This document shows positions 22,576 through 32,847 of a stretch of DNA of 62,748 nt, one piece after another. A program made the position numbers and the translations under genes. The stretch's first letter is position 1. Each line of letters starts with the position of its first letter. Origin of the DNA: Burkholderiales bacterium 70-64 (GTDB taxonomy: Bacteria > Pseudomonadota > Gammaproteobacteria > Burkholderiales > Burkholderiaceae_E); assembly GCA_001898645.1 (NCBI GenBank), contig MKUQ01000063.1, positions 1 through 62,748 on the forward strand, given 5' to 3'. Under the pieces are notes generated by a model. That model was not told where the DNA came from, ran no database searches, and saw nothing but the letters and a program-made list of their open reading frames with translations.

Positions 22576-22680
22576 ATACGGTTTTGCGTTCGTTCGCAGA
22601 ACAAGGCGGGGCGCCGCAGACAGTGCTGTAGCACGGCAAGGCGCCCCAACGCAGTGATGCGAGCGAACGCAGAACCGTAT
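22576..22680. repeat. 105-bp nested palindrome between mutS and ctaA
   Basis: A nearly symmetrical element centred on 22628. The outer arms ATACGGTTTTGCGTTCGTTC and ATGCGAGCGAACGCAGAACC(GTAT) pair with few mismatches. The inner arms hold GGGGCGCC/GGCGCCCC. The apex is the perfect hairpin GTGCT-GT-AGCAC (22623-22634). The pairing continues weakly outward (GGGGCGCGC at 22562 and GCGCGCCCC at 22684). It lies between convergent genes and its last base overlaps the ctaA stop codon. It could act as a bidirectional terminator, or be a non-autonomous mobile repeat of REP/MITE type. Confidence 0.8.
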
Positions 22681-23792
22681 CAGCGCGCCCCGAGGCCGTG
22701 CAGCTTGGCCGGCGCCCGAAGCGCGGCGACTCCCGCCAGCACGCCGGCAAGGATGGCCGCCAGCGCGTTGTGCAGGGTGGCCGTGAGCAGGGGCTGACCG
22801 GCGGCGGCAGTGCCCATGCCCAGCAGCAGCTGCGCGACCAGCAAGGCCAGCAGCGCGCTGCGGCCGGCGCCGCGCAGCGCACCCGAGCGCAACACGAGCA
22901 GCGCCACGACGATGGCGAAGACGATGCCGAGCGCGCGATGGACGAGGTGCAGGCCGTGCGCCGCCGCCGCATCGACGCTCGCCTGCACACGCAGCGGATC
23001 GAACGCGGCGGCATCGAGCCGGACGCTCTCGAAGCACGAGGCGCCCATGCAGGCGTCGATGGCGTGGCGCGCGCCGATCATCGTGCCGACCCAGGCCAGC
23101 AGACCCAGGAGCACGAGCGCACCCCAGGCGAGCCGGACGCCGCGGGCGATGGCACCGGCGTCGGCGGAGGCGATAGCACCGGCGGGGGCGATGGCACCGG
23201 CACTGGCGACAGCCGGTTCGCCGGGCCGCCGCCCTCCCCGCGCCGCGATCCACGCGAAGGCCGCGGCGAGCGCCAGACCGCCGACCAGGTTGCCGACCGT
23301 CACCAGCGGCAGATCGTGCGGCGTGAGGCGGCCGAGCCAGGCGAGGAAGGCAGTGTCGGCAAGCGCCGCCGCCGCGGCCACGCGCGCACTGCCGTCCATC
23401 CCCGACCAGCCGAACACGGCGATCACCAGCACCAGCACGCCGACCAGCATCGCGCTGAGGCGGTGCAGCCCGCGCGCCGCAGTGACCGCCGGCGACGATC
23501 CATCCGGCGCGGCGGCCGCGACGCCTGCTGCGGAAGCCCCGGCTGCTCCGCCCGCTGCCGGCGCAGCAGCCGTCTCGCCCGCCTCCGGAGCCCGGGGCGC
23601 CTCGCCCGCTGCCGGCGCCCGGGCCGCCCCGCCCTCCTGCGCAGCCGATGCGGGGGCCCCGGCCGTCGCCTCGCGATAGCACCGGGGCCAGTCGTCGCAG
23701 CTCAGCCCGGCCTGCGAGTGGCGGATGAATGCGCTCGCGGCGGTGATGCACACCGTGAGCGCGCAGGCCACGAGCGCCAGCGCGCGGATCAT
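22680..23792 (-). CDS. ctaA: Heme A synthase (CtaA/COX15)
   Basis: Oxidises the methyl group of heme O to make heme A for a3/a-type reductases; polytopic membrane protein of 370 residues. Eight hydrophobic helices in two four-helix halves are seen, with the expected His residues in FIRHSQAG, LHRLSAM, HLVHRALG and LHNALAA, and Cys pairs in the periplasmic loops (CDDWPRC and CMGASC). A long Ala/Gly/Pro/Glu-rich insertion (about residues 42-97) sits in the first periplasmic loop, and a second repeat (AGAIA-type) lies near 200. It overlaps the preceding heme-copper gene by 4 bp and ends the operon, so heme A is probably needed for it. Confidence 0.88.
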   Translation of the reverse strand: MIRALALVACALTVCITAASAFIRHSQAGLSCDDWPRCYREATAGAPASAAQEGGAARAPAAGEAPRAPEAGETAAAPAAGGAAGASAAGVAAAAPDGSSPAVTAARGLHRLSAMLVGVLVLVIAVFGWSGMDGSARVAAAAALADTAFLAWLGRLTPHDLPLVTVGNLVGGLALAAAFAWIAARGGRRPGEPAVASAGAIAPAGAIASADAGAIARGVRLAWGALVLLGLLAWVGTMIGARHAIDACMGASCFESVRLDAAAFDPLRVQASVDAAAAHGLHLVHRALGIVFAIVVALLVLRSGALRGAGRSALLALLVAQLLLGMGTAAAGQPLLTATLHNALAAILAGVLAGVAALRAPAKLHGLGAR

Positions 23793-25213
23793 CGCGCGCG
23801 CCGGGTTGCGATCACGCTGTCGAGCACCACCCACACGAACAGCATGCCGCCGATGATCGCGATCAGTCCGCCCAGCCCCATCAGGCCCATGCCGGCCACC
23901 TCCTGCGTGGTGCGCAGCGTCTGCTCGGCGCCGGCCACCTTGCGCTGCACGCCGTAGCCGCCGGACCAGACCAGCCCGAGGATGTGCAGCAGCTGCCCGC
24001 CGCCATAGAGCCACGGCTGCCAGTCGGCGATGCGGCCGCCGGGCGCGCGGTAGCCCAGGCGCGGCAGCAGCGCGTAGGCCAGACCCATCAGCGCCAGCGT
24101 CACCCCGACGATCGAGCCGTGGTAGTGCGCCGGCACGCGCACGTCGGAGCCCTTGATGAGAAAGCCGATCAGGCCGCCGATCGAGAACAGCAGCAGCGAG
24201 GCGATCAGCGCCGCGCGCAGCGGCCTCGTCTCGGGCGCGGCCGGGGCGCCGCGCCGCACCAGCGCCACGGCCAGGGCCAGCACCATGGGCATGATCGCCA
24301 GCCCGCCGCCGAAGCGCATCAGCCAGGTCATCATGCGGTGGTGCTCGACCGAGAGCACGGTCCAGTTCAGGTAGATGAGCGGCGCGAGGAACACCGACAC
24401 CAGCCCGATCGCGTAGACCAGCACCACCACGCGCGGGCTCAGGGGCAGCGGCGAGCCGATCAGGGTCGCCAGCCAGGCCCAGGCGACCAGCATCAGCAGC
24501 GTCCAGGTGAACTGGATGACGTGCCCCGGTCCCCAGAACAGCAGCTCGTAGTAGGTCTTCGCCTCGAGCTCGCGCGGCACTTCCACCACCGACCACACCA
24601 TCGCCAGCAGCGCCACCGCGCTCGAGACCGCGGCGGCCTTCAGCCCGAAGCGCAGCGCATCGGAGCCGTCGAGCTGCAGGCTCATGCGCGCCGGGGCGAC
24701 GAACGAGCGCAGGGTGAGCAGCAGGAAGCCTGCGCCGAGCACGATCAGCCCCCAGGCGAACACGTCGTTGTCGATCACCGGCACGTAGTTCGACATCACC
24801 GGGATCGCACGGCCTGCGAACGGCGAGGCGGCCATGAAGAGCGCCCCCAGCCCGACGAGCCACAGCGCGAACCAGCCCAGCCCGGTCCAGCGCGGCGAGG
24901 TGTCGATGCTCCACAGCATGCCGGCCATGGAGACGAACCAGACCAGCACCGACAGGTCGACGTGCACCACCAGCGCGACGCGGAAGAAGTCGCCGGCCGG
25001 CACCAGGTTCGCGAAGAAGGGCGTGCGCGCGAGCACCAGCAGGATCGAGAACAGGCCGGCGCCGATCAGCGCGGCCACGCCCAGCAGCAGCCAGCCGGAG
25101 ACGAGCGCGCGCTGCTCGGCGGTCGGGATCTCGAGGTCGAAGCGATCGTTGCGCAGCAGCGCCGGCGCACCCCCGAGCGGCGCCGGGAATCCGCGTGGGG
25201 TGGCCAGCCTCAT
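23789..25213 (-). CDS. Second heme-copper oxidoreductase subunit-I-like protein, no cross-link Tyr
   Basis: A 474-residue polytopic protein with about 12 helices and all six histidines expected in heme-copper subunit I: His84 (low-spin heme), His231, His291 and His292 (CuB), and His363/His365 (HYH, heme ligands). The helix with the first CuB His reads GPGHVIQF, so the position four residues after the His is Phe, not Tyr, and a Gln precedes it. No replacement Tyr as in cbb3 enzymes is obvious. It is therefore not a standard oxygen reductase; NO-reductase-like or non-catalytic roles are possible. It overlaps both neighbours by 4 bp within the eight-gene operon. Confidence 0.8.
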   Translation of the reverse strand: MRLATPRGFPAPLGGAPALLRNDRFDLEIPTAEQRALVSGWLLLGVAALIGAGLFSILLVLARTPFFANLVPAGDFFRVALVVHVDLSVLVWFVSMAGMLWSIDTSPRWTGLGWFALWLVGLGALFMAASPFAGRAIPVMSNYVPVIDNDVFAWGLIVLGAGFLLLTLRSFVAPARMSLQLDGSDALRFGLKAAAVSSAVALLAMVWSVVEVPRELEAKTYYELLFWGPGHVIQFTWTLLMLVAWAWLATLIGSPLPLSPRVVVLVYAIGLVSVFLAPLIYLNWTVLSVEHHRMMTWLMRFGGGLAIMPMVLALAVALVRRGAPAAPETRPLRAALIASLLLFSIGGLIGFLIKGSDVRVPAHYHGSIVGVTLALMGLAYALLPRLGYRAPGGRIADWQPWLYGGGQLLHILGLVWSGGYGVQRKVAGAEQTLRTTQEVAGMGLMGLGGLIAIIGGMLFVWVVLDSVIATRRAR

Positions 25214-25716
25214 CGGATCACCACGCCGCCCTGGTCGGCGTTGAAGTCGATCAGCACCACCTGCCCGGGCACCACGTTCAGCTTGCGGTCGCCCTCGTAG
25301 TTGAAGCCCTTGACGCGGATGTCGTCGTTGAACTGCACCCGCAGCGCATGCTCGCCCGCCGGGATCTCGAGGCGGCGGTAGCCGCTGGCGGCGCCGTCGC
25401 GGCGCAGCCCGGCCGGGGGAAAGACCTCGTCGTAGAGCACCTTGCCGTCGAGCTCGACCCGCACGCGCACCGGCGAGCGCTCACGCGGGCAGTCCATCTG
25501 CGCGCGCAGTTGCGGCGGCAGCTTGGCCAGCTCCTCGGGCGAGCGCGAGCGGCAGTCGGTGACGAACTCTCCCGGGTGCCGGAACGACAGGCGCAGCAGC
25601 CCTTCGTCGGGCCCGAGGTGGTGGTACACGGGCGAGCTCGAGAAATAGCCGACGAACACGGCGAACAAGGCGTAGAGAATCCCCTGGCCGCCGTAGCGCA
25701 GGACCGCGTTACCCAT
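25210..25716 (-). CDS. Unknown membrane-anchored protein of the respiratory operon (168 aa)
   Basis: I do not recognise this family. The N-terminus has one membrane helix (about residues 11-30) followed by SSSPVYHH. The remainder is a probable beta-sandwich domain on the outer face, with two cysteines, Cys55 and Cys76, 21 residues apart. A repeated beta pattern ends in VVPGQVVLIDFNADQGGVVI. Two adjacent His at 32-33 and the Cys pair could bind metal or form a disulfide. It overlaps the cytochrome b-ferredoxin fusion by 8 bp and the second heme-copper gene by 4 bp, so its function is tied to these: an accessory subunit or an assembly factor. Confidence 0.75.
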   Translation of the reverse strand: MGNAVLRYGGQGILYALFAVFVGYFSSSPVYHHLGPDEGLLRLSFRHPGEFVTDCRSRSPEELAKLPPQLRAQMDCPRERSPVRVRVELDGKVLYDEVFPPAGLRRDGAASGYRRLEIPAGEHALRVQFNDDIRVKGFNYEGDRKLNVVPGQVVLIDFNADQGGVVIR

Positions 25717-27283
25717 CACTGACCTCCGTCGATGTTTCCTGTTGCGGCGCCCCCAGCCGGGCCCGGAACGCCTCGATGCCCGCCCGCAGCGCGGCACGCT
25801 CCTCGCGCGCGGCTTGCAGCACTTCCACCCGCTCGCGTTCGACGCCGCGGCGCAGACGCGGCTCGCGTTCGCCGGCCAGGCGCTCTCCGGTCCATCGGGC
25901 CCCGAAGCGGAACTCGCAGTCGGACGGCGGGCACGCCGCGACGACCACGCCGCTCGCGCCGCCGCGCAGGGCGTACTCGATGAACGTCGGCGGAAGCATA
26001 CCTGCGCACGGCAGTCCCAGCACCACAAGACCCCGGCCCGGCGCGGGTCCCAGCCCGGCGCCGCGCTGGCAGGTGAACACCACCAGCGCGCCCTGCCCGT
26101 GCGGGGCGCGCAGCGCCGCGTCGAGCGCCTCGCGCAGATCGCCCACGGTCGACCCCGGCAGATCGATGCCGCTCACCAGGCGCTCGCCGGCGCGAAACGG
26201 AACCGACGAGGGGCATGCCCCGGCGCAGATGCCGCACGAGGCGCAGCGGTCGGCATCGACCACCGCGATCTGGCCGCGGCCTCCCGGGTGCGGCGCCATC
26301 GCGATCGCCGCATAGGGGCAATCGGCGAAGCAGCGGGTGCAGCCGTTGCAATGATCCGGATCCACCACCGCCGGCGCCGGGCGCCGCAGCGGCCCCAGCC
26401 AGGGCGCGACCGCGAGCAGCAGCGTGAGGCCGGTGGCGACGATCCAGACCAGGGCCGGCGTAGCGGCGTAGATCGCCGTCAGCGGCGCCAGGTAGAACCA
26501 GTCGAGGGGCAGCGTCGCGGGCAGCCAGTCCAGCTCGGCCGGCGGCTGCGACACCGCGGGCAGCGCCAGCGACAGGAGCGACAGCGCGGCGAGCGTCCAC
26601 AGCGCCACCGCACGGCTGGCGCCGGTCTGCGGGCGGGTCAGCCGCTGGACATGCGCCCACATCACCAGCAACAGCACCAGCGGCACGCCGATGTGCAGGA
26701 AGACCACCAGCGAGAACAGCCGGTCCGAGACCGCGCCCTCGGAGATGAAGTTGCGCACCAGCGCCGGCCCGAAGCCCGGCAGCGCGCCGAACCATTCGGT
26801 GGTGGCGGTGGCCACGAACAGCGCCACGCTGTCCCACACCAGCCAGTAGCCGATGACGCCCGCGGCGACGGCCAGCCACAGCGTGGGCACGCCGCTGACC
26901 CAGGAATACCAGCGAAAGCCGCGATAGCGCCCGTAGGCCAGCTCGCGCACGAGGTGCAGCACGATCACCGCGACGAAGGCGTCCGAGGCGTAGCGGTGCA
27001 GGCTGCGCATCACGCCGCCGACCCATCGCTGGCCATGCGTGAGCTGCTCGACCGACGCATGGGCGCCCGCCACGCTGGTGTCGTAGAAGATGTAGAGGTA
27101 GCCGCCGGTGAGCGCGATCAGCCAGAACAGGTAGAAGCCCAGCCCGCCGAGCTGGCGAAGCGGGTTGTCGCGCTCGCCGCAGGCCCGGTCGATGGCGCGT
27201 TCGAGCGCACGCAGCGCGCGTGCCGCCACGCCGCTGCCCTCCAGGCGCGCCTCGGTCGGATTCAGCGTGTGGAAGGGGGACAT
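25709..27283 (-). CDS. Diheme cytochrome b - 2x[4Fe-4S] ferredoxin - MvhD-like fusion
   Basis: A 524-residue three-module redox protein. Residues about 40-215 match the N-terminal half of bc1-type cytochrome b, with heme pairs His96/His110 and His197/His211, each 14 apart. Two more helices follow (about 223-243 and 262-295). Residues 310-360 carry two CxxCxxCxxxCP clusters (C312/315/318/322 and C347/350/353/357). The C-terminal part (about 400-470) resembles MvhD, the delta subunit linking hydrogenase to heterodisulfide reductase, with Cys405, Cys426, Cys451 and Cys456. It would carry electrons between a cytosolic low-potential donor and the membrane. ATG 27283 is used; an upstream ATG at 27331 would add an unlikely Arg-rich tail. 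Confidence 0.83.
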   Translation of the reverse strand: MSPFHTLNPTEARLEGSGVAARALRALERAIDRACGERDNPLRQLGGLGFYLFWLIALTGGYLYIFYDTSVAGAHASVEQLTHGQRWVGGVMRSLHRYASDAFVAVIVLHLVRELAYGRYRGFRWYSWVSGVPTLWLAVAAGVIGYWLVWDSVALFVATATTEWFGALPGFGPALVRNFISEGAVSDRLFSLVVFLHIGVPLVLLLVMWAHVQRLTRPQTGASRAVALWTLAALSLLSLALPAVSQPPAELDWLPATLPLDWFYLAPLTAIYAATPALVWIVATGLTLLLAVAPWLGPLRRPAPAVVDPDHCNGCTRCFADCPYAAIAMAPHPGGRGQIAVVDADRCASCGICAGACPSSVPFRAGERLVSGIDLPGSTVGDLREALDAALRAPHGQGALVVFTCQRGAGLGPAPGRGLVVLGLPCAGMLPPTFIEYALRGGASGVVVAACPPSDCEFRFGARWTGERLAGEREPRLRRGVERERVEVLQAAREERAALRAGIEAFRARLGAPQQETSTEVSDG

Positions 27284-27334
27284 GCTGGGGTGCTGCGACG
27301 GGCGCGCGGGCCGGAGCTGCGCGCACCGCAATCT

Positions 27335-28171
27335 TCATGCACGCGAGGAGCGGCGCCACTCGCGCATGACCACCCAGGCGATCGCCCCCAGCGTGGTGAG
27401 TCCGGCAAAGATCTCGAAGAACAGGGAGTAGTTGACGCGATAGCCGCCGGTGAAGGGATCGTAGACGGTGCAGTACAGCTTCACCTTCTCCCAGAGGTTC
27501 TCCAGTGTCACTTCCCGCGATACCTGCCCCGAGAGCAGCTCCTTGAGCGGCTGCACCAGCATCGGCAGGTCGAAGTTCTCGCCGTAGACCTGGCGGTAGA
27601 TCACGCCGTCGGCATCGACGATGGTCACCTGGGTGACGTGGTCGAAGCCGCCGGCAGTGCGTTCGTAGCTGAAGCCCAGGTTGCGGGTCAGCGCATCCAC
27701 TTCCGCTGGATCGGGGCTGAGGAAGGCCCAGCGGGGCTCGACGATGCGGTTCTGGCGCTTGAACGCGGCCATCGCCTCGGGGGTATCGAAGGGCTGGTTG
27801 AAGCCGATCGACACCACGTCGAAGCGGTCTTCGCCGAGCGCCTCGCGCGCGGTGCGCACGGCCTTGGCGAGGAACTGGGTGGCCACCGGGCAGGCCTGGA
27901 AGCAGCCCGTGTACACCAGGCTGATGAGCAGCGGACGGCCGCGATAGTCGCTGAGCCGGACTTCCTTGCCGGTGCTGTCGCGCAGGCGGAAGTCGTCGAG
28001 GGGGCGGCCGATCGCGGCCTGGCTGGCCGCGAGCGCCTTGCGGAAATCGGGAGTGGGGCGATCAACGTCCTCGGCGGCGCGCGCCGCCGGGGACGCGGCA
28101 CCGATTCCGAACGCCAGGGCGAGGACGAAGAGCGCGCGCCGCGCGCGGCGTTCGGATCGATGCCGGGTCAT
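27335..28171 (-). CDS. SCO1/SenC-type copper chaperone with C-terminal anchor
   Basis: A 278-residue periplasmic thioredoxin-fold protein. A cleavable signal peptide (ASPAARAAE) precedes the domain. The copper ligands are visible: CFQAC (CxxxC) and the distal His in GGFDHVTQ. An extra transmembrane helix near the C-terminus (about 247-267) anchors it, unlike most SCO proteins, which are anchored at the N-terminus. SCO proteins insert copper into CuA. Its place between the heme-copper gene and the cytochrome b fusion, 7 bp from the former, fits maturation of the CuA subunit. Subunit II, subunit I, then a SenC-type gene is the order I recall for norSY-senC clusters of ammonia oxidisers. Confidence 0.9.
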   Translation of the reverse strand: MTRHRSERRARRALFVLALAFGIGAASPAARAAEDVDRPTPDFRKALAASQAAIGRPLDDFRLRDSTGKEVRLSDYRGRPLLISLVYTGCFQACPVATQFLAKAVRTAREALGEDRFDVVSIGFNQPFDTPEAMAAFKRQNRIVEPRWAFLSPDPAEVDALTRNLGFSYERTAGGFDHVTQVTIVDADGVIYRQVYGENFDLPMLVQPLKELLSGQVSREVTLENLWEKVKLYCTVYDPFTGGYRVNYSLFFEIFAGLTTLGAIAWVVMREWRRSSRA

Positions 28172-28178
28172 GCAGTCC

Positions 28179-29879
28179 TCAGCTGAGCCCCCACACCGTC
28201 GACAGGTACTTCCAGTTGACGAAGTAGTACAGCACGAAGGCGGCGAGGAAGACCAGGGCGAACACGAAGGTGCCCGGCGCGGCGAAGCCGCCGCCGTGGC
28301 CGTGGCCGGCCAGCGCGGCCTGCACCGGCATGCGCAGCGGGCTGATCGTGGTGGTGTAGGCGCCTGCGTCGAGCCGCTTGCCGAACAGGATGGTGCCGAC
28401 CGTCAGCCAGATGTACAGCGCGCCGCCGACCACCGCGATGATGCCGCCGATGCCGCCGATAGCCAGCATCAGCAGCGCCGTGCCCGGGAACTCGTAGGGC
28501 ATGGCCGCGCCGGCAAAGGTGATGTCCCAGTGGCGGCGCGGTACGCCCAGCGTGCCGGCGCCCATGAAGGCGAGCGTGAACAGGCCCATGCCGAGCGCGA
28601 AGATGTACGGCTGCAGCTTGGCCAGCCCGGGATTGATGATCTCGCGCTGGAACAGCGTCGGCAGCAGGAAGTAGGTCATCGCCATGAACGCGAGCGTGGT
28701 GCCCAGCACGACCGTTGCGTGGAAGTGGCCGGGCACGTAGATCGTATTGTGGATGATCATGTTCAGCTGCTCGGTGCCCATCATCACGCCCGAGATGCCG
28801 CCGAGGAAGCCGAAGCCGATCAGCGACATGAACATGCCCGAGAACACCGGGTTGCCCCACGGCGCCTTGCGCAGCCACTCGAACAGGCCCTTGGTGTAGC
28901 CCTTCTCGCGCTGCGCCACCTCGATCGCGCCCGGCACGGTGAGGCCGTGGATCATCGAGGCCAGCACCGCCAGGTACATCGCGTAGCTGGTGTTGAACAC
29001 CTTCCACTCGGTGCCCACGCCGGGATCGGCCAGGATGTGGTGGGCCGAGGCCAGCTGCAGGAAGCAGATGTACAGGAAGAAGGCGGTGCGGCTGATGCGC
29101 TCGGACATCGGCTTGGCGCCGAACACGATGGCGGCGATGGCGTACCACACGGCCACGTGCGCGCTGACGTTGATCTGCTGCGACGAGTGACCGAAGGCCC
29201 ACCAGATCACCCGGTACATGGCCGGATCGATGTGCTTGATGTAGCCGATCGACCAGCCGAAGGTCGGGATCAGGATGATCGCGCCCGAGGCGATGGTGAA
29301 GATCGCGATGATGCAGGCGGTGAGCGCCCCGAAGGTGACCAGGGGGATCGAGCCTTCGTAGGTCTTCTCCGCCTTGGCCACCACCAGCGTGCCCAGGAAG
29401 ATGAAGCAGGCGACCAGCGCGCCGACCGCGAACAGGATCAGGCCGAGGTAGAACCCGGGGACGGCCGGCATCGGCACGTACGAGGTCATCATGACCGTCG
29501 CATCGCCCATGAAGATGGTCGTGTTGAACACGACCGTGCCGACCACCATCAGGATCCACGCCAGCCAGGCCAGCCGCGGCGTGGCGAGCCGGCATCGCAG
29601 CAGCGTCGAGGAGCAGAAGTAGAGGACGGCGACCTCGAAGAAGATGATCCACACCACCAGCATGTCGAGGCCGTGGGCAGTGAGGAAGAGATAGAAGTTG
29701 TCGGCGTCGATGAGGTGCACCGCCTGCCAGCGCGTGAGCGTGATCAGCAGCGCGAGCACGCCGCCGACCAGCAGCGCCACGACGGCGGCGACGGCATTGA
29801 CCTTGATGAGGGTCTCGGCCGACTTGTGGAACTGGAGCCCCGTGCGGGGGCAGATTCGGAACTGGGCAGCGGTTGCCAT
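28179..29879 (-). CDS. B-family heme-copper reductase subunit I lacking the cross-linked Tyr
   Basis: Catalytic subunit of 566 residues with about 13 helices, closest in motifs to B-family (ba3-like) enzymes: HNTIYVPGHFHATV, and AHHILADPG. All six metal histidines are present: His69, His231, His280, His281, His385 and His387. The CuB-His helix reads AFGHSSQQINV: the residue four after His231 is Gln235, where oxygen reductases have the Tyr covalently joined to that His. This change marks the heme-copper branches proposed to be nitric oxide reductases (sNOR/eNOR-type). I infer NO reduction over O2 reduction, with moderate confidence. It is preceded by a CuA subunit and followed by SCO. Confidence 0.9.
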   Translation of the reverse strand: MATAAQFRICPRTGLQFHKSAETLIKVNAVAAVVALLVGGVLALLITLTRWQAVHLIDADNFYLFLTAHGLDMLVVWIIFFEVAVLYFCSSTLLRCRLATPRLAWLAWILMVVGTVVFNTTIFMGDATVMMTSYVPMPAVPGFYLGLILFAVGALVACFIFLGTLVVAKAEKTYEGSIPLVTFGALTACIIAIFTIASGAIILIPTFGWSIGYIKHIDPAMYRVIWWAFGHSSQQINVSAHVAVWYAIAAIVFGAKPMSERISRTAFFLYICFLQLASAHHILADPGVGTEWKVFNTSYAMYLAVLASMIHGLTVPGAIEVAQREKGYTKGLFEWLRKAPWGNPVFSGMFMSLIGFGFLGGISGVMMGTEQLNMIIHNTIYVPGHFHATVVLGTTLAFMAMTYFLLPTLFQREIINPGLAKLQPYIFALGMGLFTLAFMGAGTLGVPRRHWDITFAGAAMPYEFPGTALLMLAIGGIGGIIAVVGGALYIWLTVGTILFGKRLDAGAYTTTISPLRMPVQAALAGHGHGGGFAAPGTFVFALVFLAAFVLYYFVNWKYLSTVWGLS

Positions 29880-29892
29880 GGTGTCCCCTGAA

Positions 29893-30432
29893 TTATTTGA
29901 CGTACAGCCGCGAAGCCATCTTGTGATGGCCGATGCCGCAGAACTCGTTGCACACGATGTGATAGGTGCCCGTGCGGTTGGGCGTGACGTTCACCACGTG
30001 CTGGTAACCGGGGAGAACCTGGATGTTGATGTTCTCGGGCTGCAGCGAGAAGCCGTGCTGGTAGTCCATCGAGCTCAGGTTGAGCCGGTAGGTCTTGCCG
30101 GCCTCCAGCTCGAGGATGGGCCACCAGTCCCACAGGCGCGCGATGAGGTAGACGTCGCTGCCGGCCGGGGGAGCGACCACCGGGACCTTCAGATCGGTCT
30201 CGGTGCGCACCGTGTACTTGTCGACCATGGCCTGGGTGGCCTGGGCGAACAGCTCGGGCCGTACCTTGTAGGTTTCCGAGGACAGGTTCTGCTTACCGTA
30301 CAGGTGCCAGTACGGCATCATGAAAAACATGATCATGCACCAGACGAAGGCGATCACGATCCACAGGATCTCGACCTTGTCGACCGGTTGCTTCCACCAG
30401 ATCCGTTGCGGCGGGGGCAGTATGGCGCTCAT
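29893..30432 (-). CDS. CuA-containing subunit II
   Basis: Accepts electrons from a c-type cytochrome or cupredoxin and passes them to subunit I. It is 179 residues long, with one N-terminal transmembrane helix (about 20-40) and a periplasmic cupredoxin domain. All CuA ligands are there: His126 (YQHGF), Cys161, Glu163, Cys165, His169 and Met172 (CNEFCGIGHHKM). The single helix and the short length match ba3-type subunit II, not A-type CoxB. It is not a quinol-type subunit, since those lose the CuA ligands. It lies 13 bp before subunit I and 24 bp after a one-helix peptide gene. Confidence 0.92.
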   Translation of the reverse strand: MSAILPPPQRIWWKQPVDKVEILWIVIAFVWCMIMFFMMPYWHLYGKQNLSSETYKVRPELFAQATQAMVDKYTVRTETDLKVPVVAPPAGSDVYLIARLWDWWPILELEAGKTYRLNLSSMDYQHGFSLQPENINIQVLPGYQHVVNVTPNRTGTYHIVCNEFCGIGHHKMASRLYVK

Positions 30433-30456: not shown

Positions 30457-30642
30457 TTACTTGCCCAGCGGGGTGACGGGAATCGTGGCGATCTCCATCA
30501 CTCCCCACAGGATGTAGAGCACCGTGGGCAGCGTGATGCCGAGAAACAGCAGCAGGAACGGATTGTCCAGGATCTGCTGCATGACCGGCACGCGCTCCTC
30601 CTCCCCTTTTGCTTCGCCCTGCGACTGCACCTGTCCAGCCAT
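30457..30642 (-). CDS. One-helix small subunit of the reductase complex (61 aa)
   Basis: A 61-residue protein with a charged, Glu/Gln-rich cytosolic N-terminus (about 1-25) and a single transmembrane helix (about 27-49). Small one-helix subunits of this type (IIa in ba3 oxidases) stabilise B-family reductases, and this gene leads the operon in the right place for that role. A purine-rich GGGGGAAAG lies six bases before the ATG. There is no cofactor ligand in it. Sequence similarity cannot confirm the family at this length. Confidence 0.7.
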   Translation of the reverse strand: MAGQVQSQGEAKGEEERVPVMQQILDNPFLLLFLGITLPTVLYILWGVMEIATIPVTPLGK

Positions 30643-30713: not shown

Positions 30714-30727
30714 TTGACTCGCATCAA
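30714..30727. promoter_or_regulatory. FNR/DNR-type operator between the divergent respiratory genes
   Basis: TTGACTCGCATCAA matches the FNR/DNR/NNR consensus TTGAT-N4-ATCAA with one mismatch (C for T at position 5). Its centre is 79 bp before the first codon of the eight-gene operon. A weak -10 (CATCAT, minus strand, 30690-30685) would place the box near -41.5, the class II activator position. It also lies about 205 bp before the divergent cytochrome b fusion. It suggests control by low oxygen (FNR) or NO (DNR/NNR). Confidence 0.65.
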
Positions 30728-30924
30728 GGACGGCTCGTTACGGGCTTGCACCGCGACGCAAAAGATGTATTGCGAGACGCAAGCATGCAACGGTTGGCCC
30801 TTTTCTTGCAATCCCCGCGCAATCCGGCTAGGTTGCCGAGTCGATTTCAGCCCGGGCATTGTGCGCTGTCCGCAACAGCCGCCGCCGTCCCCGCGCCCGG
30901 GGCGCAACAGATCGGAGAACCTCG

Positions 30925-32847
30925 TTGCTGAAGAGAATCCAGGCCGTCGCCCAATGGTTTTTCCTGCGCATGGAAGCGGTGGGCAACCGCGTGTTCGGCG
31001 AACGGCTCAACCCGATGTACTACCTCGGGGCGACCAGCTACTGGATGTTCTGGATCGTCGTGGCCAGCGGGCTGTACGTCTACGCCTTCTACGAGACCGG
31101 GGTCGACAAGACCTACGCCTCCATGGAGGCGCTCACCCACGGCCAGTGGTGGGCCGGCGGCATCATGCGCAGCATCCATCGCTACGCCTCGGACGCGATG
31201 GTGCTGACCATGCTGCTGCACATGATCCGCCACTTCGCGTTCGATCGCTACCGCAGCTTCCGGGCGTTCTCCTGGGTGAGCGGCGTGATCGTGCTGTGGC
31301 TGGTCTACGCCTCGGGGGTCAACGGCTTCATGCTGCCCTGGGACAAGCTGGCCCAGTTCGTGGTGGTGGCCACCACCGAGTGGCTGGACGCGCTGCCGGT
31401 GTTCCGCGGCATGCTGACGCGCAACTTCATCACCCCCGAGGCCATCACCGACCGGCTGTTCTCGCTGCTGTCGTTCCTGCACATCGGCATCCCGCTGGTG
31501 GTCATGCTGGCGCTGTGGATCCACACCCAGCGCGTGCCGCGCGCCTCGCAGATGCCGCCGCGACGGCTGGCCTACGGCCTGCTCGTCATGCTGCTGGCGA
31601 TCGCGCTGGTCAAGCCGGTGGTGAGCCAGGCGCCGGCCGACTTCGGCAGCGTGCCCGTCACGCTGAGCTTCGACTGGTTCTACCTGCTCGTCTACCCCCT
31701 CATCTACTCCTGGGATCCGCTCAAGCTGTGGGTCCTGTGCGGCGGCCTCACCGTGCTGCTGATCGCCATGCCGTGGCTGCCGCCCAAGCGCAGCGGGCGC
31801 GGCCAGGTCTACCACCTGACCGCCCACCCGGGGCGCCAGGGCGCGCCGGTGCGCCCCGGCGAGACGCTGCTCGATGCCGGGCTGCGCGCGAGCATCCCCC
31901 TGCCCTACGAATGCCGCTCGGGCGGCTGCGGCGTGTGCAAGGCGACCCTGATCGGCGGGCAGGTCGAGATGTCGGGCTACCAGCCGAGCGCGCTGTCCGA
32001 GGACGAGCGCCAGGCCGGGCGCATCCTCCTGTGCGTGGCCTGCGCCCTGTCCGACGTCGAGTTCGAATACGAGCCCGACGCCGCCGCGCGCGGCACCGTG
32101 GTGGGCACCTACGAGGCCCGCGTCGAGCGGCTCGAGCGCCTGGCGCACGACGTGATGCTGCTCGCGCTGCGCCTGCCCGAGGGCCAGCGCATCGAGTTCG
32201 AGGCCGGCCAGTACCTGAGCATCATCCTCGACGACGGGTCGCGGCGCAGCTACTCGTTCACCACCCCCTCGGACGCGACCGACCTGGTCGAGCTGCACGT
32301 GCGCCTGATGCCGGGCGGGCGCTTCACGACCCACGTGTTCGAGACGATGAAGTTGGGCGACACCGTGAAGTTCGAGGGGCCGCTGGGCTCGTTCGTGCTG
32401 CACGAGCCGAGCGACAAGCCGCTCATCTTCGTGGCCGGGGCCACCGGCTTCGCCCCGGTCAAGGCCCTGCTCGAGCAGGCCTTCCGCATGGGCATCGAGC
32501 GCCCGCTCTACCTGTACTGGGGCGTGCGCCGCCCGCGCGACCTCTACCTCACCGAGCTGCCGGGGGAATGGGCGCGGGCGCACCCGAACTTCCACTTCGT
32601 GCCGGTGCTCTCCGAGCCCGCCCCCGAGGATGGCTGGAGCGGACGCACCGGCCTGGTCCACGAGGCCATCCTGCACGACTTCCCCAACCTTTCCGGCTTC
32701 TCGGTCTATGCCTGCGGATCGGTGCGCATGGTGCAGGCCGCCCAGCCCGCCTTCATCGCCCAGGGGCTGCACGAGGACGCGTGCTACTCGGACGCGTTCG
32801 TGCCGTCCGCCCGGCCGTCAGCCTCCTCGGCCGCCTCAACCTTCTGA
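30925..32847 (+). CDS. Diheme cytochrome b - [2Fe-2S] - FAD/NAD(P)H reductase fusion
   Basis: A 640-residue fusion. Residues about 30-205 are a cytochrome b N-terminal half with heme pairs His85/His99 and His186/His200, clearly paralogous to the fusion at 25709-27283 (shared MRS-HRYASDA and FLHIG-PL blocks). Two more helices follow. A plant-type [2Fe-2S] domain has Cys330, Cys335, Cys338 and Cys370. The C-terminal part is a ferredoxin-reductase module: FAD motif RRSYSF and pyridine-nucleotide motif GATGFAPVKA. It could move electrons between NAD(P)H and b-hemes or quinone. The TTG at 30925, with GGAG seven bases upstream, is preferred over an ATG at 30859. It is divergent from the reductase operon and may share the FNR/DNR box. 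Confidence 0.85.
   Translation: MLKRIQAVAQWFFLRMEAVGNRVFGERLNPMYYLGATSYWMFWIVVASGLYVYAFYETGVDKTYASMEALTHGQWWAGGIMRSIHRYASDAMVLTMLLHMIRHFAFDRYRSFRAFSWVSGVIVLWLVYASGVNGFMLPWDKLAQFVVVATTEWLDALPVFRGMLTRNFITPEAITDRLFSLLSFLHIGIPLVVMLALWIHTQRVPRASQMPPRRLAYGLLVMLLAIALVKPVVSQAPADFGSVPVTLSFDWFYLLVYPLIYSWDPLKLWVLCGGLTVLLIAMPWLPPKRSGRGQVYHLTAHPGRQGAPVRPGETLLDAGLRASIPLPYECRSGGCGVCKATLIGGQVEMSGYQPSALSEDERQAGRILLCVACALSDVEFEYEPDAAARGTVVGTYEARVERLERLAHDVMLLALRLPEGQRIEFEAGQYLSIILDDGSRRSYSFTTPSDATDLVELHVRLMPGGRFTTHVFETMKLGDTVKFEGPLGSFVLHEPSDKPLIFVAGATGFAPVKALLEQAFRMGIERPLYLYWGVRRPRDLYLTELPGEWARAHPNFHFVPVLSEPAPEDGWSGRTGLVHEAILHDFPNLSGFSVYACGSVRMVQAAQPAFIAQGLHEDACYSDAFVPSARPSASSAASTF

Follow-up and report, generated by a model that had tools for sequence, protein, structure and literature searches.

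The window, that is, the whole stretch of 62,748 nucleotides that was analysed, carries a gene for the catalytic subunit (subunit I) of a heme-copper enzyme, and the question it raises is whether this enzyme reduces oxygen or nitric oxide. The gene is:

28179-29879, minus strand: catalytic subunit I, very probably of eNOR (566 aa plus stop; both ends of the open reading frame match those in the earlier note).

The earlier note had proposed a cytochrome c-fed NO reductase with a gene order resembling that of sNOR. Here we argue that the protein is very probably the catalytic subunit of eNOR, a B-family heme-copper NO reductase, an assignment from sequence made because of its glutamine residue, its subunits and its clade. 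The class proposed in the earlier note is thereby supported by the family (the Gln mark, the clade and the published activity), while the parallel with sNOR did not stand. The eNOR enzyme itself is not new but known and lately recognised, and its identity here is ordinary to a specialist; what is poorly explained is its partner genes, and the accessory set of this cluster is unexplained.

The active site of subunit I

The six metal-ligand histidines described in the earlier note (His69, 231, 280, 281, 385 and 387) are all present, and none of them varies in an alignment of 22 family members. The CuB helix has the sequence GHSSQQIN. HMMER aligned residues 58-498 to the Thermus ba3 oxidase (E 9e-49 with the best entry), and Gln235 falls one residue past the mutated position of the T. 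thermophilus ba3 entry 4g71 (V236N), i.e. on Tyr237, which confirms the claim that a glutamine stands at the position of the cross-linked tyrosine. Judged from the sequences of its relatives, Gln235 is real and neither chance nor a sequencing slip, because the motif GHxxQQ[IV]N is common to them, with tyrosine in 15/15 distant B-family relatives. The AlphaFold2 model of subunit I has a mean pLDDT of 76.9, the active-site block 231-240 being weak (pLDDT 61), and the top PDB matches of the model found by Foldseek are ba3 oxidases at 26-27% identity.

In the alignments, the counterparts of ba3 Tyr248, Ser261, Ser309 and Thr315 are kept in subunit I as Y246, S259, S308 and T314, and that of Thr312 is His311. 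These five are what we take to be the K-path residues of the ba3 oxidase. Since four of the counterparts are kept, a K-type path is probably the proton entry route of the window enzyme. A proton channel has been proposed in eNOR (PMC8114936, PMC10734462).

In the mechanism that we propose, electrons from reduced cytochrome c would enter at CuA of subunit II and pass to the low-spin heme (His69/His387) and on to the high-spin heme (His385) beside CuB (His231/280/281), where two NO would be joined and reduced to N2O and water. Gln235 would occupy the place of the cross-linked tyrosine. In oxidases this tyrosine donates an electron and a proton; it would be dispensable in NO reduction because the O-O bond stays uncut. 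By homology or from general knowledge, the most likely reaction is NO to N2O with cytochrome c as donor. Use of heme A is plausible, judged from the neighbouring CtaA gene.

Relatives and phylogeny

At least 562 of 593 candidate stretches in a scan of contigs encode a relative of subunit I, and the best 80 make up our named set. These best 80 of at least 562 are 69-89% identical to the window protein and nearly all beta- or gammaproteobacterial by title; the closest among the matches listed are from a Burkholderiaceae MAG (L039, 89%) and from Zeimonas arvi (L102, 87%; Zeimonas belongs to Burkholderiaceae). GHxxQQ[IV]N is found in every locus of this best-80 set (80/80), in 77 of them as GHSSQQIN, and the four homologues retrieved from plasmids (Defluviimonas, two Thermus, Thermomicrobium) share it. 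The more distant B-family relatives examined all have tyrosine at His+4 (15/15), and asparagine stands at this position in Ruegeria, in a second Thermomicrobium gene, and in two genes of the window genome (L005 and L006).

Subunit I is matched at E 1e-20 or better in 31 of 274 genomes of the class, with a wide gap between the 24 at 63% identity or more and the seven at only 26-31%. Within the genus, 11 of 13 genomes match (the window's own is counted, and one match is a 66-residue fragment); no match was found in the eight genomes of the rest of the order. Of 59 matching plasmid records, 12 span 80% of the query or more, namely those of Defluviimonas (64%), ten from Thermus (46-48%) and that of Thermomicrobium (49%). 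Haloarchaeal plasmid matches were rejected as eNOR, the six fetched (L123, L129, L143-L146) all being Tyr oxidases. Both Thermus homologues fetched (L120:7983-9665 and L121:7983-9668) read GHFK, not GHFH, a lysine replacing the second low-spin heme histidine.

The earlier note had looked to a heme-copper tree to place the protein. In our tree of 34 rows, from which the motif columns (residues 230-238) were left out, the 11 Gln rows group in a single clade (100/100) with the Thermus and Thermomicrobium homologues, apart from the Tyr oxidases and the Asn rows. The four Asn rows form a clade of their own (100/100), the 15 Tyr rows are not resolved as a single clade, and a qNOR-like protein of the window genome (L007) is a distant long branch. 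The tree program warned of possible false joining among the long branches of the A, C, qNOR and Asn groups, a warning that does not name the Gln clade. The protein is thus placed apart from Tyr oxidases and sNOR-type proteins; the rows include no characterised eNOR, and the Gln clade is tied to the eNOR name only by its residue and by the described distribution.

According to Table A4 of PMC8756737, the residue at the tyrosine position is Gln in eNOR, Asn in sNOR, Asp in gNOR and Glu in cNOR and qNOR. The same source lists eNOR homologues in Halobacteria, Chloroflexi and Alpha-, Beta-, Gamma- and Deltaproteobacteria, and its eNOR tree includes a Thermus sequence. Of these types, cNOR, qNOR and eNOR are described, together with bNOR, as biochemically characterised, and sNOR, gNOR and nNOR as proposed (PMC11388526). 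Subtype ba3-a1 is given as an NO reductase fed by reduced cytochrome c, hence eNOR (PMC8879329), with no catalytic tyrosine and with SCO within its operon (PMC6431628), and an eNOR sharing an operon with NirK has been reported (PMC4653789). Genes for eNOR are usually labelled cytochrome c oxidase and often misannotated as such (PMC8756737); homologues of the window subunit I are indeed annotated as 'cbb3-type' or 'ba3-type' oxidase. With eNOR annotated as oxidase, NO and N2O metabolism is undercounted.

Organisation of the gene cluster

The minus strand carries, in order, genes for a 61-aa peptide, subunit II, subunit I, SCO, a cytochrome b/2[4Fe-4S]/FlpD fusion, a 168-aa protein, COX1b and CtaA, and a cytochrome b/[2Fe-2S]/FNR gene is divergent on the plus strand. 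Besides subunit I, the features are:

22680-23792, minus strand: CtaA/COX15 heme A synthase (Pfam COX15-CtaA), with a 4-base overlap with the end of COX1b.
23789-25213, minus strand: COX1b, a second heme-copper subunit I homologue of 474 aa (Pfam COX1, 60 bits).
25210-25716, minus strand: 168-aa protein without a family, with one membrane helix predicted by eye.
25709-27331, minus strand: fusion of cytochrome b (b6-type N-terminal domain), two [4Fe-4S] motifs and an FlpD domain (Pfam).
27335-28171, minus strand: SCO/SenC copper chaperone (Pfam SCO1-SenC).
29893-30432, minus strand: subunit II, 179 aa, with a CuA domain (Pfam COX2) and an N-terminal membrane helix predicted from the sequence.
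30457-30642, minus strand: 61-aa single-helix membrane peptide, directly upstream of subunit II.
30859-32847, plus strand: fusion of cytochrome b, [2Fe-2S] ferredoxin and an FAD/NAD-binding reductase of the FNR type (Pfam).

That the operon has a CuA subunit II, SCO and a heme A synthase, as the earlier note had stated, is borne out by these Pfam matches and by the alignment of subunit II to the T. thermophilus ba3 CuA domain, in which the H, C..C, H and M ligands are kept. COX1b, the 61-aa peptide and the two cytochrome b fusions had gone unmentioned there. Near residues 45-100, the CtaA protein contains an Ala-rich insertion of low complexity. Of the 84 loci tested, 79 have a peptide with an NPF...G motif upstream of subunit II, and the Thermus and Thermomicrobium loci are not among these; by analogy, the 61-aa peptide is a possible counterpart of subunit IIa of B-type oxidases (PMC3128077). 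Pfam and NCBIfam gave no match to the 168-aa protein.

Most of the partners recur across Betaproteobacteria. We counted them in the 58 of the 80 named loci (best 80 of at least 562) that have at least 7.5 kb past subunit I. Subunit II, SCO and the 168-aa protein are each present in 58/58, COX1b in 56/58 and CtaA in at least 11/58, a lower bound because one or more CtaA-like frames escaped the count. The fusions were counted by their C-terminal parts (the shared cytochrome b domain cross-matches), giving 54/58 for the Fe-S/FlpD part, 51/58 for the ferredoxin-reductase part and 47/58 for both. At the cut-offs used, neither the fusions nor COX1b were found in the Thermus and Thermomicrobium clusters.

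The interval between subunit I and SCO is long enough to hold a gene in 65 of 73 loci and is below 300 bases in eight, the 73 being those with SCO in the stretch (seven of the best 80, of at least 562, have none there). In L039, the gene in this interval passes the NCBIfam cut-off for heme o synthase. In the window this gap is only 7 bases (28172-28178), in contrast to most relatives, L039 (89% identical) among them. No cyoE was found elsewhere in the window's 62.7 kb, and the UbiA-family genes of its genome sit on other contigs. Since the cyoE-size interval is absent from the window, the compactness of its II-I-SCO order stems from a local loss of cyoE and is no norSY signature.

COX1b, a homologue that may lack CuB

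The model of COX1b has the heme-copper oxidase fold (pLDDT 84.8). His84, 231, 363, 365 and 410 do not vary among 22 diverse members, and His84, 363 and 365 are of the heme-ligand type. The His-His pair for CuB is conserved neither in 62 aligned sequences of the family nor in the 22, and in a profile alignment to 7deg the His-His of the oxidase falls opposite non-His residues of COX1b. The window COX1b does have His291-His292, apparently off register. Judging from these alignments, COX1b may have kept two heme sites and lost CuB, and the unconserved pair led us to reject it as a second catalytic subunit. Of 24 eNOR genomes 19 carry COX1b, but so do ten genomes without eNOR, and it was for this reason rejected as an obligate eNOR partner. 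In two of the eNOR-less genomes (L159 and L163, by eye), it adjoins cyoE and cox genes. Among plasmids it gave no matches, and a literature search for a CuB-less heme-copper homologue gave nothing relevant.

The two cytochrome b fusions accompany eNOR in most loci of Betaproteobacteria and are possibly a dedicated electron input. A bolder proposal, which we consider improbable but worth stating, is that in Betaproteobacteria eNOR forms the centre of its own electron-transfer assembly, in which an NADH-type cytochrome b/ferredoxin/flavin reductase and the cytochrome b/[4Fe-4S]/FlpD protein would feed NO reduction beside or instead of cytochrome c, and COX1b would be a CuB-less two-heme protein serving as electron carrier or as a partner in heme or NO handling. 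If this is true, a heme-copper homologue devoid of its copper site would here have a role for the first time.

Genome context and regulation

The window genome has nine matches to PF00115, eight of them above the cut-off, including the eNOR subunit I and COX1b. Its ccoN-type genes are L002, above the NCBIfam cut-off, and L003, below it, and L001 is A-type-like by motif. L007 (886 aa) is qNOR-like by its length and by the Glu at the tyrosine position; NCBIfam gave no name for it. The Asn-type, sNOR-like genes L006 and L005 lie on contigs C21 and C22, each with a COX2-type neighbour. They stand at L169:7117-8607 (G000:C21) and L170:9486-10910 (G000:C22), and one of the neighbours is fused to a cytochrome c domain. 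With two Asn-type genes and a qNOR-like gene, an extra NO reductase would be redundant in its role, which counts against the eNOR reading.

Cytochrome d1 proteins are encoded in the genome, including NirS with its cytochrome c domain, and a NosZ propeller match (a fragment) lies at a contig end. No NirK was found above the cut-off in the window genome (best 53.9 vs 296.3 bits). On a Thermus plasmid nirS adjoins the eNOR homologue, and genes for Rrf2 and DUF542 adjoin another homologue. This denitrification context speaks for an NO reductase.

In the divergent intergenic region lies a candidate regulatory site:

30714-30727, no strand: FNR/DNR-like palindrome TTGATGCGAGTCAA (9/10 consensus bases).

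Scored by matches to the ten fixed bases of TTGATnnnnATCAA upstream of subunit II, a box at 9 or 10 of 10 occurs in 30 of 84 loci vs about 1.4 expected from control windows of the same loci, the loci being related and hence not independent. No match reached 9/10 in 54 of the 84 loci or in the four loci on plasmids, which counts against the eNOR reading. The box sequence does not separate FNR from DNR. From homology or general knowledge, we infer control by NO or low oxygen.

Substrate and alternative functions

Could the enzyme nevertheless reduce oxygen, perhaps with high affinity, either dispensing with the cross-linked tyrosine or using one located elsewhere? Its fold and its nearest solved sequences are those of ba3 oxidases, and heme A synthase and SCO are proteins that typically assist oxidases. 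Moreover, the Tyr-less B-type sNOR of Nitrosomonas may be a high-affinity oxidase according to PMC6967387, where NO reduction is disputed, so that loss of the tyrosine alone is no proof of NO reduction. Against this reading, the glutamine is invariant family-wide, the protein falls in a 100/100 clade whose Gln points to the group reported to reduce NO, and the genome already encodes A-type-like and cbb3-type oxidases to deal with O2; we regard it as very unlikely. The norSY-senC parallel of the earlier note would instead make the enzyme an sNOR. The window does have the order II-I-SCO, and the sNOR-type cluster of Ruegeria has it likewise. However, the published sNOR is of the Asn type, the residue here is Gln, and the Asn proteins form their own 100/100 clade. 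The Asn-type genes of the genome are on other contigs, and it is one of them, L006, that has Ruegeria as its best plasmid match (53%). The gene order itself loses its force where a cyoE-size gap parts subunit I from SCO in 65/73 relatives (from the best 80 of at least 562) and is missing from the window. On residue and clade we reject an sNOR identity and leave it practically no chance.

A reading with a real, if minor, chance is that of a bifunctional enzyme, which would mainly reduce NO at low oxygen with some O2 reductase activity and would serve in NO detoxification, not respiration. The FNR/DNR-like box, the hemerythrin, Rrf2 and DUF542 neighbours of some relatives, and the presence of several NO reductase-like genes within one genome all speak for it, but the full denitrification context (NirS, NosZ fragment) fits respiration too. 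We therefore keep to eNOR as the preferred reading. The window is then a clear case of eNOR in a denitrifying betaproteobacterium that also holds sNOR-like and qNOR-like genes. The likely product, N2O, is a greenhouse gas. The conserved partners, COX1b foremost, could reveal the electron route to the reductase, and COX1b could show if a heme-copper homologue without copper is functional in its own right.

Comparison with known systems

Like eNOR as described by Hemp and Murali, and as ba3-a1 by Degli Esposti, the window enzyme has a B-family subunit I with Gln, a CuA subunit II encoded directly upstream, and SCO. The window cluster differs in being betaproteobacterial and in adding two cytochrome b fusions and the putatively CuB-less COX1 homologue, and, unlike most eNOR relatives, it has no cyoE. 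With the ba3 oxidase of Thermus thermophilus it shares the fold (26-27% identity in the structural match), the six histidines and a CuA subunit, but the oxidase keeps the cross-linked Tyr237 where the window protein has Gln235. The sNOR of Ruegeria pomeroyi and Nitrosomonas (norSY-senC) is likewise a Tyr-less B-type relative with a CuA subunit and SCO; it has Asn at the tyrosine position, belongs to a separate clade and has a subunit I of about 475-500 aa, whereas that of the window has 566 aa and Gln. The bNOR (CuANOR) of Bacillus, which lies outside our tree sample, is a related B-family NO reductase that contains CuA, with Asn at this position (PMC8756737, Table A4) where the window has Gln. 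Finally, cNOR and qNOR have Glu at the corresponding position and an FeB site, whereas subunit I of the window has Gln.
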